Assembly (NCBI RefSeq): GCF_002289565.1
Contig: NZ_NTFY01000060.1
Span: 248,001 to 312,000 of the forward strand
Origin: Rhodopirellula sp. SM50
Lineage (GTDB): Bacteria; Planctomycetota; Planctomycetia; Pirellulales; Pirellulaceae
Reading direction: 5' to 3'
Length of the DNA stretch: 64,000 nt
The notes below the pieces were generated by a model, which searched no databases, was not told the origin of the DNA, and worked only from the letters and a program-made list of their open reading frames with translations. Made by a program: the position numbers and the translations under genes. Shown here one piece after another: positions 38,782 to 52,456 of the stretch (the stretch's first letter is position 1; every line of letters starts with the position of its first letter).

Positions 38782-39666
38782 CTACTTGTTTTGAACGAGC
38801 TTGGTTTCGGGATGGCTGTAGAGCCGGATCCAGTCGACGTGCATTCTGGCCGGTAAAGTCGCCGTGATTTTGTCCGGCGTGTCGAGTCCCGTGTAGGAGT
38901 GAGTCCAACTGCCGACGGCGACGTTCAAGATCGGATAGAACGGCTGGTGGTACTCTTTCATCTCTGGCGCCGTGATGTCCCAGGACCCAAACTCTTTCCC
39001 GTCCAAGAAGAACTTCATGTGCGTCGGTGTCCATGAGATCTTGTAGAGGTGATAATCCAGGTGCAGATCCACCGGTGCGTCGTACCATTCGACCAGACTC
39101 GTTTTTTGCTCGCCGACGCCGGCGAAGTGCAACGCGCAGTTGATTTGTCGGTGTTGCAGTCCTTTTGCGATGGCGTCTTTGCCGCCGATTTCCAGGATGT
39201 CGGCTTCACCGCACTTGGGCCAAACCGTTCCAGGGAAGCTGTTGCCGAGCATCCAGAATGCGGGCCAGATTCCGTCGGCCGTGTCGGGCACCTTGATCCG
39301 AGCCTCCAGGTCTCCGTACTGAAATGCGAATCGGCCGCGGGTGTGAATCCGTGCCGAGGTAAACGCATTGCCTCCGTAAGCTTCCCGTCGGGCTTCGATC
39401 ACCAGGTTGCCGTCGCGGAGGTAAGCGTTCTCAGGCCGATCGGTGTTGAACTCGAGTTGTCCGTTGCCGAACCCGTGCCCACCGACGTCGTAGCTCCAGA
39501 CGTTCCGGTCAAGCGATTCCCCGTCGAACTCTTGCGACCAGACGACCTTGTTTGCTGTCGACTCCTGGCACGACGCGGACGCCAGGAAGAAAGCGGATGA
39601 GGCAACGAACACGCCAATGCCTACGCAGAAACGAAATTCAGCCGGTCGCCGGTGACGAGAATTCAT
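38782..39666 (-). CDS. Glycoside hydrolase family 16 beta-glucanase-like enzyme
   Basis: A 294-aa secreted endo-hydrolase. The start at 39666 opens a signal peptide through ASSAFFLASASCQ. The GH16 jelly roll starts VVWSQEFDGESLDRNVW; the catalytic motif is GEADILEIGG (E-x-D-x-x-E), giving nucleophile and acid/base Glu. WPAFWMLG, DYHLYKISWTPTHMKFFLDG and MHVDWIRLY are further conserved strands. Laminarinases and related beta-1,3-glucanases share this form of the motif, as do some agarases and carrageenases, so the substrate is open. It fits the polysaccharide-breakdown theme. Its start lies 35 bp from a REP array. Confidence 0.93.
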   Translation of the reverse strand: MNSRHRRPAEFRFCVGIGVFVASSAFFLASASCQESTANKVVWSQEFDGESLDRNVWSYDVGGHGFGNGQLEFNTDRPENAYLRDGNLVIEARREAYGGNAFTSARIHTRGRFAFQYGDLEARIKVPDTADGIWPAFWMLGNSFPGTVWPKCGEADILEIGGKDAIAKGLQHRQINCALHFAGVGEQKTSLVEWYDAPVDLHLDYHLYKISWTPTHMKFFLDGKEFGSWDITAPEMKEYHQPFYPILNVAVGSWTHSYTGLDTPDKITATLPARMHVDWIRLYSHPETKLVQNK

Positions 39667-39724
39667 CGGGGAGTCTCTAGAGAAAAGAACGGTTGATAAG
39701 TAGGTCATGCTGTGCATGACAGAC

Positions 39725-39851
39725 GGCACGCACAGCGTGCCCTACGAATTGGCACGCACAGCGTGCCCTACGGATTGGCACGCACAGCGTGCCCTACGGA
39801 TTGGCACGCACAGCGTGCCCTACGGATTGGCACGCACAGCGTGCCCTACGG
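39725..39851. repeat. Left REP array, family C, five 26-bp units
   Basis: Units begin GGCACGCACAGCGTGCCCTA at 39725, 39751, 39777, 39803 and 39829, joined by CGGATT or CGAATT. All five have the ACA loop. The last unit runs into the 3' end of the transposase gene and supplies its TAG stop codon (39848-39846). Confidence 0.96.
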
Positions 39852-40421
39852 CTCTCCGGCTTCCTTGACGGCTTTGATATGCAACGGTGGTCGGTTGATT
39901 CCTTCGGTGTAGCAGCCCCAATGTTCCGGGTAGACTCCTTCGGTGACCCAGCGATGGAAGCTGGAGTGTGGCCAGTCCCTTGGGCACCGTACATACCCAT
40001 GCTTGACCGGATTCCAATGAATATAGTCGAAATGGTTCTGGAAATCATCTTCATCTTCGACGAGGTGCTCCCAATAGCGCGGTTGCCAAACCCCGTGCCT
40101 CCGCTGGCGTTGTTTGCTCTCTGTGACCGCGTGTTCTTCACCACCGATGGAAAGCCAGTGCTTCGTGAACTCCTTTTTGATCCAGCCGAGGCGTTTGGGG
40201 TACTCGCTGTCGCCACGCGGCAACGTCCAGAGCGTGTGCCAATGATCTGGTAACAAAACGATCGCATTGACCGTCATTGGCCACCGCATCATGCACCTGC
40301 GAAGCATGCTTCCGATCAACGCGATCGCTGTCTGTCGTCGAAACGTTGGCTGTCGCTCATAGGTCACGACGGTAAAGAAATACGTTCCGCCCGGCATAAA
40401 AAAGCGACGGTAATCCGGCAT
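39846..40421 (-). CDS. REP-associated tyrosine transposase (RAYT, Y1_Tnp/IS200-like)
   Basis: A 191-aa single-strand DNA nuclease of the IS200/IS605 TnpA superfamily, RAYT branch, which cuts REP hairpins in E. coli. The N-terminus YRRFFMPGGTYFFTVVTYER is typical. The HUH-type metal motif is LLPDHWHTLW (His-Trp-His). The helix with the catalytic Tyr reads FDYIHWNPVKHGYV, close to the RAYT YIHNNPVK motif. The gene appears complete and in frame. Its stop codon comes from the adjacent REP unit. Unlike insertion sequences, RAYTs are usually single-copy and vertically kept; flanking REP arrays are diagnostic. Confidence 0.95.
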   Translation of the reverse strand: MPDYRRFFMPGGTYFFTVVTYERQPTFRRQTAIALIGSMLRRCMMRWPMTVNAIVLLPDHWHTLWTLPRGDSEYPKRLGWIKKEFTKHWLSIGGEEHAVTESKQRQRRHGVWQPRYWEHLVEDEDDFQNHFDYIHWNPVKHGYVRCPRDWPHSSFHRWVTEGVYPEHWGCYTEGINRPPLHIKAVKEAGEP

Positions 40422-40498
40422 GATTCAACCTCCGTCGACCATGCGATCATGGTGAGTAGTGAGTAGTGAGTGAGTAGGTCATGCTGTGCATGACAGAC

Positions 40499-40728
40499 GG
40501 CACGCCCAGCGTGCCCTACGGCTTGGCACGCCCAGCGTGCCCTACGGCTTGGCACGCCCAGCGTGCCCTACGGCTTGGCACGCCCAGCGTGCCCTACGGC
40601 TTGGCACGCCCAGCGTGCCCTACGGCTTGGCACGCCCAGCGTGCCCTACGGCTTGGCACGCCCAGCGTGCCCTACGGCTTGGCACGCCCAGCGTGCCCTA
40701 CGGGTTGGCACGCACAGCGTGCCCTACT
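40499..40728. repeat. Right REP array, family C, nine 26-bp units
   Basis: Units start every 26 bp from 40499 to 40707. The first eight have the CCA loop (GGCACGCCCAGCGTGCC); the ninth, next to pgi, has ACA as in the left array. The ninth unit's CTA (40724-40726) is the TAG stop of pgi on the minus strand. Confidence 0.96.
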
Positions 40729-42358
40729 TGAGTGATCGGTAACGCTGGATCAGGGTGTTGGTGGAACTGTCGTGGTCGAGCGGTGCGTCGGCGGACTCGA
40801 GTTCGGGGACGATCTTCTTGGCCAGGACTTTGCCCAGCTCGACGCCCCACTGGTCGAACGGGTTGACTTGCCAGATCACCCCTTGGGTGAACACGCTGTG
40901 TTCATACAACGCGACCAGTTTGCCGAGCACCGCCGGCGTCAGCGTTTCGATCAGCAGCGTGTTGGAGGGGCGGTTGCCTTCGAAGACGCGGTGCGGTGCG
41001 AGCTCTTCCGACGTGCCTTCGGCCAGCACTTCCTCGCGCGTCTTGCCCATCGCCAACGCTTCGCCTTGGGCGAAGACGTTCGCACTCAATTTGTCGTGAT
41101 GATCGCCGATCGGATTGAGTGACTTGGCGAACGCGATGAAGTCGCAGGGAATCAAGTGCGTCCCTTGATGGATCAACTGATAGAACGAATGCTGGCCGTT
41201 GGTCCCCGGTTCGCCCCAGTAGATCGGACTGGTGTCGTAATCGACTCGGTCGCCGGCCAGCGTGACCGACTTGCCGTTGCTTTCCATCGTCAGTTGTTGC
41301 AGGTAGGCGGGGAAGCGATTGAGGTATTGATCGTAGGGCAGCACGGCGGTGGTTTGGGCGCCGAAGAAGTCGGTGTACCAGACGGTCAGCAGGCCCAGGA
41401 TCGCCGGCAGGTTCTCTTCCAGCGGTGCGGTCCGGTAGTGTTGGTCCATCTCATGGAACCCGGCAAGCATTTCGCGGAAGTGATCCGGGCCGACTGCCAG
41501 CATGGTGGACAGTCCGATCGCGGAGTCCATCGAGTAGCGTCCGCCGACCCAATCCCAAAACCCGAACATGTTGTCGGTGTCGATGCCAAACTCGGCGACT
41601 TGCTCGGCGTTGGTGGACAGGGCGACGAAATGTTTGGCGACGGCCGAATGATCCGCGCTGAGTTTTTCCAGCAGCCAGGTCCGCGCGGTGTGCGCGTTGG
41701 TCATCGTTTCTTGTGTGGTGAAGGTCTTCGACGCGATGATGAACAGGGTCTCGGCCGGGTTCAGATCGCGTGTCGCTTCGGCAAAATCGGTCCCGTCGAC
41801 GTTGGACACAAACCGCAACGTTAGATCACGATTGCTGTAATGTCGCAGCGCTTCGTAGGCCATCACCGGCCCGAGATCCGAGCCGCCGATGCCGACGTTG
41901 ACGATGTTGCGAATCCGCGCACCGGTGTGTCCGATCCATTGACCGCTGGTGACCGCATCGCAAAACGCGGACATCTTGTCCAGCACCGCGTGAACCTCGG
42001 GAACGACGTTTTTCCCTTCGAACTCGATCGTCGCATCGCGCGGCGCCCGCAGCGCCGTGTGTAACACCGCCCGGTCTTCGGTCGTGTTGATCTTTTCTCC
42101 CGTCATCATCGCCTCGATCCGCTCCTTCAACCCCGCCGCTTCGGCCAGCTTGATCAACAACGAAACGGTTTCGGCGTCGATGCGGTTCTTGGAATAATCC
42201 AAATACAGCCCGACCGCTTCGAGCGAGAGGGTTTGGCCACGTTGCGGATCGGCGGCAAACAGCTCTCGCAGATGCTTTGACTTGATTTGCTCGTAGTGGG
42301 CGTTCAAGTTTTTCCAAGCGTCCTGTGCGGTCAGACTTTGCGGCATGGTGGTGGTCAT
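40724..42358 (-). CDS. pgi: Glucose-6-phosphate isomerase
   Basis: A complete 544-aa Pgi, cytoplasmic, which interconverts glucose 6-phosphate and fructose 6-phosphate in glycolysis and gluconeogenesis. Signature one is [15 protein letters not shown]; signature two is [13 protein letters not shown], just after the catalytic-Glu segment [21 protein letters not shown] and SKTFTTQET are the phosphate-binding loops. Length matches the long bacterial form. The final residues (QRYRSLK) run straight into the REP array, whose TAG ends the protein. It is monocistronic. Confidence 0.97.
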
Positions 42359-50191: not shown

Positions 50192-50219
50192 CCTGCCGCC
50201 CGCGTGGGAGAGGCAGTCG

Positions 50220-50239
50220 TAGGGCATGCTGTGCATGCC
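50220..50239. repeat. Solo REP-C head variant
   Basis: TAGGGCATGCTGTGCATGCC, a palindrome with the TGT loop, 29 bp after the DapA-family stop codon. It matches the heads of the RAYT arrays except for one symmetric arm change (TCATGC to GCATGC) on both sides, so pairing is kept. Confidence 0.8.
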
Positions 50240-51235: not shown

Positions 51236-51358
51236 TCGTTCAATCCCATCAACCGTTCTGACAGGGTGGCCACGGGCTGCGGGTGAACCGCGGGACCCCC
51301 AGTCCCGATACACCCCCCGTGGGAACTTACTTTGTCGTACCAAGGATGGGAGACAGAA

Positions 51359-52399
51359 ATGCGTCACAAATCTATGCCCGCCGTGCTGTTGGCGGTCGGC
51401 CTGCTGGCGATGGTTGGAAGTCTGGGTTGCACACCGCGTGTCCGGATCCGTGCGGCGCCCGGCCCTGATGACACCGGCATTCGGTACTACCGCCCAAAGC
51501 CGTATCTGCGGATTGAACCGGGCGGAAGCGTGGTGACCGAGGGCAAGGTTTCGACGACACGGCCGAGCGATGAGTTCGTCGCCATCTCGCTGGAATACCT
51601 GCCCGACTTCTCCGAAGAGTATTCGATCGACGTGCGGCCCGGACTGGGATCGGCCCACGTCTCGGTCGGCTTGACCGATGGCTGGAATCTGACATCGCTG
51701 AACCAAAAGCTTGATTCGCAATTTGACGAAAACGTCAAAGCGATCGCCGACTTGGCCAAGGCGGGAACCGGTTTTCTTCCCACGGCCAAGGATTCCGGCG
51801 GCGGCATCCCGGGAGGTTCGCAGAAGTTTGTCGTCGCGGCGACCAACGTCCCGATCGGTTACTACGAATCGGTGATCAGCAAAGACGCGTGCGGCAAGAA
51901 ACGTCTGTACGGTTGGCGATACGTCGGTTTCCTGCCGTTTAGTCCTTGTCCGACCGAGATGTGCGGCGGCCAGCAATTGGTCTGTGGCTCAGTCCCCTCG
52001 GAGCTGTTCGGCATCGTGTTTGAAAACGGCGTGATGACCTTCAAACGTCTCGATGCGATCCCGGAGGTTCCCGACACGACGCGACAATCGGTCAGCACGG
52101 GGCAGTTCGTCGTCAGTGCTTCCCGGCAAGAGAGGCTGGACGCCTTGGCCACCGCGATTCGGAAAGCGATTCTGCAGAACGAAGGTATGGAATCCAAGGT
52201 GAGCGTGACTCAGGCCGACGATTGGATGACCGTCCAGTGGGACATCGAATTATTGGGCACGATGACCAAGACGACGACCCGCGAACGGTTTATCAAGTCG
52301 CTCGTCCAACACGAAGCGGTCGAGCAGACGTTGCACGATCTGGGCGATCCGATTCCGACTGTTCTTCCGATCGCGGGGCTGATGGGGGAAGAGCGGTAG
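51359..52399 (+). CDS. Lipoprotein of unknown function
   Basis: A 346-aa exported lipoprotein. The ATG at 51359 is preceded by GGGAG eight bases upstream, a good ribosome site. The signal ends in LLAMVGSLGC, the lipobox, with Cys about residue 24. The mature part starts TPRVRIRAAPGPDD, has a beta-rich domain (EYSIDVRPGLGSAHVSVGL), several Cys (KDACGKKRLYGW, PCPTEMCGG) that could form disulfides, and a helical C-terminus. No family is recognised. It stands between the possible protease-like gene (divergent) and cydAB, and is followed 12 bp later by a REP pair. Confidence 0.75.
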   Translation: MRHKSMPAVLLAVGLLAMVGSLGCTPRVRIRAAPGPDDTGIRYYRPKPYLRIEPGGSVVTEGKVSTTRPSDEFVAISLEYLPDFSEEYSIDVRPGLGSAHVSVGLTDGWNLTSLNQKLDSQFDENVKAIADLAKAGTGFLPTAKDSGGGIPGGSQKFVVAATNVPIGYYESVISKDACGKKRLYGWRYVGFLPFSPCPTEMCGGQQLVCGSVPSELFGIVFENGVMTFKRLDAIPEVPDTTRQSVSTGQFVVSASRQERLDALATAIRKAILQNEGMESKVSVTQADDWMTVQWDIELLGTMTKTTTRERFIKSLVQHEAVEQTLHDLGDPIPTVLPIAGLMGEER

Positions 52400-52411
52400 G
52401 CGGGTAGCGGG

Positions 52412-52456
52412 TAGGTCATGCTGTGCATGACGCACGTCACGCACAGCGTGACCTAC
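52412..52456. repeat. REP pair of family C (REPIN-like) after the lipoprotein gene
   Basis: TAGGTCATGCTGTGCATGAC is followed by GCACG and then TCACGCACAGCGTGACCTAC. Two small hairpins (TCATGC-tgt-GCATGA and TCACGC-aca-GCGTGA) are framed by inverted TAGGTCA/TGACCTA, so the 45 bp can fold into one long structure. The first half is identical to the heads of the RAYT arrays at 39701 and 40475. Confidence 0.9.

Follow-up and report, generated by a model that had tools for sequence, protein, structure and literature searches.

The window, a 64,000-nucleotide stretch of a Rhodopirellula sp. SM50 contig, holds an intact gene for a REP-associated tyrosine transposase (RAYT, or TnpAREP) between two arrays of short hairpins. 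Each hairpin, or REP unit, consists of a GTAG tetranucleotide, a 7-bp stem and a 3-nt loop, and the stems fall into types that differ at two base pairs, both members of a pair changing together: x (GTCACGC), y (GGCATGC), w (GTCAGGC), x′ (GTCATGC) and y′ (GGCACGC). The head of each array is therefore itself a REP, the inverted partner of that array, and no separate sequence. The features are listed here.

38782–39666, minus strand: gene presumed to encode a GH16-like glycosidase, left flank of the REPtron
39700–39720, plus strand: left head REP, type x′ (GTAG-GTCATGC-TGT-GCATGAC)
39725–39849, minus strand: left array of five type y′ REPs (GTAG-GGCACGC-TGT-GCGTGCC) with a 26-bp period and a 4-nt AGAC junction to the head
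39846–40421, minus strand: RAYT (TnpAREP) gene, intact ORF of 191 aa, its TAG stop inside a REP GTAG (NF047646; 4er8; HUH residues H60 and H62; Y133)
40474–40494, plus strand: right head REP, type x′, identical to the left head
40499–40727, minus strand: right array of nine type y′ REPs, eight with loop TGG and the pgi-side one with TGT
40724–42358, minus strand: presumed pgi, its TAG stop within the outermost REP of the right array
50219–50239, plus strand: single REP, type y (GTAG-GGCATGC-TGT-GCATGCC)
52411–52456: inverted REP pair, x′ and x, with a 4-nt junction

The name pgi for the ORF at 40724–42358 agrees with an earlier note on this DNA and, like the GH16-like assignment, is presumptive; the ATG start of the GH16-like gene at 39666 was picked by eye, the listed ORF extending to 39729. 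That note had described five-unit and nine-unit arrays of 26-bp hairpins with identical heads, an ACA loop in the left units, mostly CCA in the right ones with ACA in the pgi-side end unit, and related single or paired copies at 50220 and 52412, and all of this holds, the arrays having a period of 26 bp. The two heads share the sequence GTAGGTCATGCTGTGCATGAC on the plus strand, the left array consists of five copies of GTAGGGCACGCTGTGCGTGCC on the minus strand, and the loops of the right array read CCA (eight units) and ACA (pgi-side unit) on the plus strand. The end units of the arrays overlap coding DNA: the TAG stops of RAYT (39846–39848) and pgi (40724–40726) each lie within the GTAG of the adjacent REP. 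Elsewhere in the window, 11 nt separate the pair at 52411–52456 from the GTAG stop of the ORF at 51332–52399. Sixteen exact GTAG hairpins surround RAYT and the whole window has 19 exact matches to the REP pattern; with up to three mismatches there are 49 matches, some hairpins being counted on both strands, against 6.04 expected, and none of 100 shuffles scored as high. Chance origin of these REPs is excluded.

The encoded protein matches the NCBIfam model NF047646 (REP_Tyr_transpos, REP-associated tyrosine transposase) with 184 bits against a cut-off of 80, and a PDB search at E ≤ 0.001 returned a single match, E. coli TnpAREP (4er8, E 1.8e-34); together with the arrays on both sides, these matches bear out the earlier identification of a complete RAYT. 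The score with the Pfam profile Y1_Tnp, 21.1, falls just below the cut-off of 23; according to PMC6006769, most class 2 proteins align with this profile only in part. The HUH motif is H60-W-H62, and across 11 aligned sequences H62 and Y133 do not vary and H60 hardly does; Y133, which aligns with the DYI motif of 4er8, is the candidate catalytic tyrosine. Five residues of E. coli TnpAREP are reported to contact GTAG (W94, Q95, E100, H101 and R104; PMC6006769), and in the alignment with 4er8 four of them are kept here, R104 being replaced by E122. Only one match above 60% identity is present in the window's genome (G000), so the gene is single-copy. RAYT and its GTAG REP arrays thus form a genuine REPtron, in which binding and cutting of single-stranded REP DNA are predicted.

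Comparison with known systems places this locus as a further planctomycete example of a known bacterial pairing, that of a tamed transposase gene with the small hairpin repeats that it would spread; what sets it apart is the frequency with which the REPs sampled in this genome lie exactly on stop codons. As in the E. coli REPtron, an HUH-Tyr protein with a matching W-Q...E-H motif is encoded by a single gene flanked by GTAG REPs (PMC6006769). Unlike the E. coli system, however, the REPs here are perfect 7-bp stems with a 3-nt loop and no bulge, the units of each array follow one another in the same orientation behind a single inverted head, where E. coli has inverted pairs, and the residue corresponding to R104 has changed. 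The fold and single-strand chemistry of IS200/IS605 elements such as IS608 would be expected by homology (PMC8266576). An IS200/IS605 insertion sequence was considered and rejected: instead of several near-identical copies of gene plus ends, G000 has one such gene, and nothing at the locus points to a mobile element that takes the gene along with it.

The earlier note had set this compact planctomycete example against REPtrons described mostly from gamma-proteobacteria. Rhodopirellula baltica is likewise a planctomycete. The novelty for the group was overstated, as PMC3733652 reports GTAG REPs in Planctomycetes and, in R. baltica, tyrosine transposase genes in abundance, flanked by repeats. 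In their described features, the families of R. baltica and other bacteria treated there resemble the present one: they carry a GTAG tag on short stems, form inverted dimers, in many cases preferably of unlike partners, have transposase genes next to them, and lend the TAG of GTAG to flanking ORFs as a stop. To that account we add a frame control on the stops, a check against relatives and the probable loss of RAYT in a sister species.

Pairing and probable local growth of REPs

The general REP pattern occurs at 263 exact places in G000 (119 + 144) and at none in the reversed control; allowing one mismatch gives 313 places, against 10 in the control. We sampled 59 clusters, 23 of them single REPs, which among the matches listed cover contigs C1–C65, the REPtron (C104) and an outside y′ place (C131), with two listed matches on C67 left out. 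The sampled units comprise 58 y, 56 x, 16 y′, 7 x′ and 4 w, with x and y dominating away from the REPtron. The exact y′ form is found at 16 places in G000, 14 in the REPtron and two outside; because y′ is nearly absent elsewhere, most x and y REPs do not come directly from the REPtron arrays.

Pairing within the sampled clusters follows a rule. The 32 inverted pairs with outward GTAG all join unlike partners (24 x–y, 4 x′–y′, 2 w–y, 1 x′–x and 1 x′–y); no homotypic pair occurs, against an expectation of about 34% from the unit frequencies. Such pairs make up a repeating unit of the REPIN or BIME kind. Exactly 4 nt separate the partners in 20 of the 24 x–y pairs, and 31 of the 36 multi-unit clusters have a single switch in orientation. 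A preference for heterodimers has already been published, without explanation, in PMC3733652. In Pseudomonas fluorescens, two inverted REPs form the likely mobile unit, the REPIN, with a RAYT acting in trans, and REPINs and their excision are treated in PMC3116915; the pairs here are alike in this, but their junction is mostly 4 nt and their partners are unlike in 32 of 32 sampled pairs.

Within any one array the spacers hardly vary, but they change from array to array (5,5,5,5; 12,12,12,12; 10,10,10; 7,7,7). Our reading of the clusters is that a REPIN landed and that one of its arms then grew locally in tandem, which would make the arrays of the REPtron two such events. The proposal that the arrays were homogenised separately is supported, and this homogenisation looks like local amplification: loop and spacer are near-constant in each array and different between arrays, and the REPtron subtype y′ is almost absent elsewhere.

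RAYT and REPs among related genomes

Some match to the RAYT protein is present in 26 of 40 genomes, G000 included, and orthologues of at least 65% identity occur in G000, G001 (91%), G003 (92%), G007 (70%) and G024 (65%). Besides the REPs of G000, copies of the pattern number 209 in G001, 310 in G003, 51 in G007 and 7 in G024. Three genomes without an orthologue also carry them: G012 (155), G004 (116) and G008 (28, in a genome 85% complete). Each remaining genome has 0 to 4 copies, and the reversed control gives 0 or 1 per genome. At least five REP copies are thus present in 5/5 genomes with an orthologue versus 3/35 without (Fisher p 9e-5, the species not being independent). The earlier note had proposed to test whether REP counts follow the presence of this RAYT and named equal abundance in close relatives that lack it as evidence to the contrary. 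On these species-level genomes the association is positive, with G012, G004 and G008 as exceptions, and the contrary pattern exists in part, in the nearest relative by pgi, G012, and in G004.

Several observations bear on G012, whose pgi is the most similar to that of the window (99%, among 14 genomes searched). RAYT keeps a stable position, adjoining pgi in G000, G001 and G003, and lies away from it in G007; in G012 the gap between pgi and the GH16 gene has no RAYT and holds a 222-aa ORF on the opposite strand, between slightly changed REPs (L116:3133-4006). Its C-terminus makes this ORF PEP-CTERM-like. Because G000, G001 and G003 all have RAYT at this place, loss of RAYT is the simplest account, and recent loss in G012 is a likely reading; REP stems in G012, judged by eye on the rows listed from the pattern search, look intact, which together with the other gene between REPs at this locus fits such a loss. 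The REP-bounded segment seems to have been exchanged in G012, with the PEP-CTERM-like ORF where the three other genomes have RAYT, and the start of the GH16 gene differs there too.

The best explanation for the observed anatomy, copy numbers, association with this RAYT type, unlike pair partners, local spacers and position on stop codons is, we think with considerable confidence, a REPtron made of a single-copy HUH-Tyr transposase and the GTAG-tagged hairpins that it would recognise. The RAYT would bind the single-stranded REP hairpin via its GTAG foot, and would cut and rejoin one DNA strand. Such cutting and rejoining may spread short REPINs through the genome, each made of two unlike REPs with GTAG outward and usually a 4-nt junction, and arrays may then grow in place by tandem addition of one arm; because growth would happen on the spot, each array would have its own spacer. 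Against this explanation stand the REPs of G012, G004 and G008 without an orthologue, the near absence of y′ elsewhere, the Y1_Tnp score below its cut-off and the replacement of R104 by E122.

The REP family might instead be moved by another enzyme, or only by recombination, with RAYT found among REPs because RAYT loci attract them. The abundance of REPs in G012 and G004 fits this idea, and G004 has 25 RAYT-like matches of other subclasses; two of these genes have a one-sided x′ REP, which lies 114 nt upstream of one and 197 nt upstream of the other. However, x′ REPs adjoin all five orthologue loci (on both sides in G003, G007 and G024 as in the window, and on one side in G001), whereas no x, y, w, x′ or y′ REP was found in the flanks of about 1.5 kb at any of 15 other RAYT-like loci scanned, which are part of many lower-scoring matches; and the other gene at this locus and the intact-looking stems of G012 fit recent loss of RAYT. 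We therefore regard movement by another enzyme or by recombination as unlikely, and keep the RAYT as the predicted agent. In G001, y and y′ make up the remaining REPs beside the orthologue, and the REPtrons of G003 and G001 differ in unit number and type. In G004, the REPs listed are nearly all x′, and several form inverted pairs whose members are separated by about 95 nt.

REPs on stop codons

In the sampled sites of G000, the in-frame stop of a long ORF lies within the REP GTAG at 25 of 78 outward REP ends, compared with one in each of the other frames; ORFs of at least 120 codons were used, some running off the fetched stretch, and the two prompting cases, RAYT and pgi, are among the 25. 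The distance to the nearest such stop is 0 at these 25 ends, 1–7 nt at none, 8–16 nt at 10 and 17–300 nt at 35, and 8 ends have no such stop. Another count with different limits placed 26 of 75 REP ends on stops. Overlap of this kind has been reported, flanking ORFs using the TAG of GTAG as stop (PMC3733652), as have REPs very near or directly after some rayt stops (PMC2817692). The coincidence is strong in G000 and weak elsewhere: 1/36 in G007, 4/36 in G004 (other frames 3 and 1), 1/9 in G008, 0/15 in Methylovulum and 1/13 in Methylomonas.

To compare landing places, 22 stop-overlapping ends were set against the orthologous gene ends of five relatives, giving 109 rows. Rows were dropped if a REP-like 17-mer followed the stop or if the stop was more than 12 nt away, which left 20 usable sites in G013 and 19 in G002, genomes with 4 and 2 copies of the REP pattern. 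The stop is at the same position as in G000 at 16/20 and 14/19 of these sites, respectively. The last residue of pgi is unchanged in G013, G002, G009 and G010 (AAG-TAA) and in G006 (AAA-TAG), whereas the gene ends one codon later in G005, G007 and G011. Since the stop mostly keeps its place in G013 and G002, relatives nearly free of REPs, most REPs landed on stops that were already there and few cut genes short.

It follows that truncation, in which a REP inserts into the final codons and brings a new stop in its GTAG, is rejected for most sites and is highly improbable as a general account. It would suit the L046 site, where the stop of G001 and G012 is 3 nt upstream and GTAG apparently arrived with the hairpin, and some sites at which the relative's stop is 3 to 12 nt away.

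Landing on native stops could reflect the enzyme itself, which would then favour particular sites: roughly one in three of the sampled REP ends is exactly on a native stop. It could also reflect selection, if insertion is indiscriminate and the REPs on stops persist because they serve, for example, as terminators or mRNA 3′ ends. In E. coli, translation is affected by REPs that lie no more than 15 nt from a stop (PMC12306157), and the weakness of the coincidence in the other genomes also counts for selection. However, a functional window would tolerate distances of 1–7 nt as readily as 0, and G000 has no end at all in that interval. Selection is thus a possibility to be taken seriously, albeit one that we consider less than probable, and site-preferring landing by the RAYT remains part of the explanation that we favour.

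GTAG as a possible landing target

If landing is site-preferring, the GTAG may be at least partly a target, and not just a carried tag or guide: the RAYT would insert a hairpin directly 3′ of a pre-existing GTAG (or GTAA). This idea, which we hold as tentative and rather doubtful, is modelled on IS608, which uses its target tetranucleotide. At stops no more than 12 nt away, the relative's stop reads GTAG at 9/20 sites in G013 and 9/19 in G002, versus 12/85 other stops (p 0.004 and 0.003), G013 and G002 being near relatives whose tests are not independent. Restricting the count to stops of exactly the same position gives 7/16 (p 0.011, G013) and 5/14 (p 0.06, G002), and once sites resembling decayed REPs, picked out by eye, are removed, the figures are 5/12 (p 0.03) and 3/11 (p 0.23).

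The filter for sites without a REP covered the 17 nt after the stop, and in the close clade four rows, L048 (G001), L308 (G003 and G012) and L310 (G003), were left out for a REP or remnant just beyond these; the truly empty sites of this clade have GTAG in 2/7 cases (G012), 2/5 (G001) and 1/1 (G003), and GTAA in 1, 3 and 0. At L290, G001, G003 and G012 all have GTAG where G000 has a REP. The presence of GTAG before a REP landed, as such alignments might suggest, is weakly supported. The L046 site runs contrary to the target idea. Among 24 unselected REP sites, 23 were aligned, one being dropped as a dispersed repeat, and few true empty sites resulted; a search for clean insertions with both flanks conserved gave no base-exact pair of before and after states with GTAG retained, most intergenic stretches having turned over. 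The target hypothesis is thus weakened by the modest strength of these figures, by L046, by the absence of a base-exact pair and by the weak coincidence outside G000.

GTAG is described as a guide in the choice of CT or CA cut sites, and the spread of REPs as poorly understood (PMC8266576). A statement that GTAG is an insertion target was not found in the portions of the literature searched. If the target idea were true, genes ending in G-TAG would be safe landing sites, because their stop survives, and this would help to explain why REPs are extragenic and at the 3′ ends of genes; one fact would then link the REP tag, the overlap with stop codons and the extragenic location. If GTAG or GTAA stops are not the target, the locus is still a well-described planctomycete REPtron. 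The genus offers a compact test: one clade has REPs by the hundred, its nearest sister seemingly lost the RAYT but retained its REPs, and REPs are all but missing from close relatives, so that the state of a landing site before insertion can be set against the state after it.

The alignments also revealed repeated tags and further repeats. At L307, L281, L283 and L303, one genome has GTAG-N4/5-GTAG-hairpin versus GTAG-hairpin in a relative, and in the window, at 52396–52414, GTAG occurs three times before the hairpin; such repeats would fit loss of a hairpin that left its GTAG behind. The flank of L296 (query 2098–2192) contains a segment of about 80–95 bp that recurs dozens of times, both dispersed and in tandem, in G001, G003 and G012; it is another repeat family beside a REP. 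REP clusters at L037, L049, L053, L285, L288, L304 and L308 abut shared sequence like TGGACCGTCTAGCGGTAAACGTCAT or TGCAGCGTCTATCGGTAGATGTCATGC, perhaps a further REP-associated family. At L032:1478-1613, a REP cluster lies within a longer inverted repeat (GGTATTCCGTGTCA ... TGACACGGAATACT), and the matching place in G001 is without that repeat.
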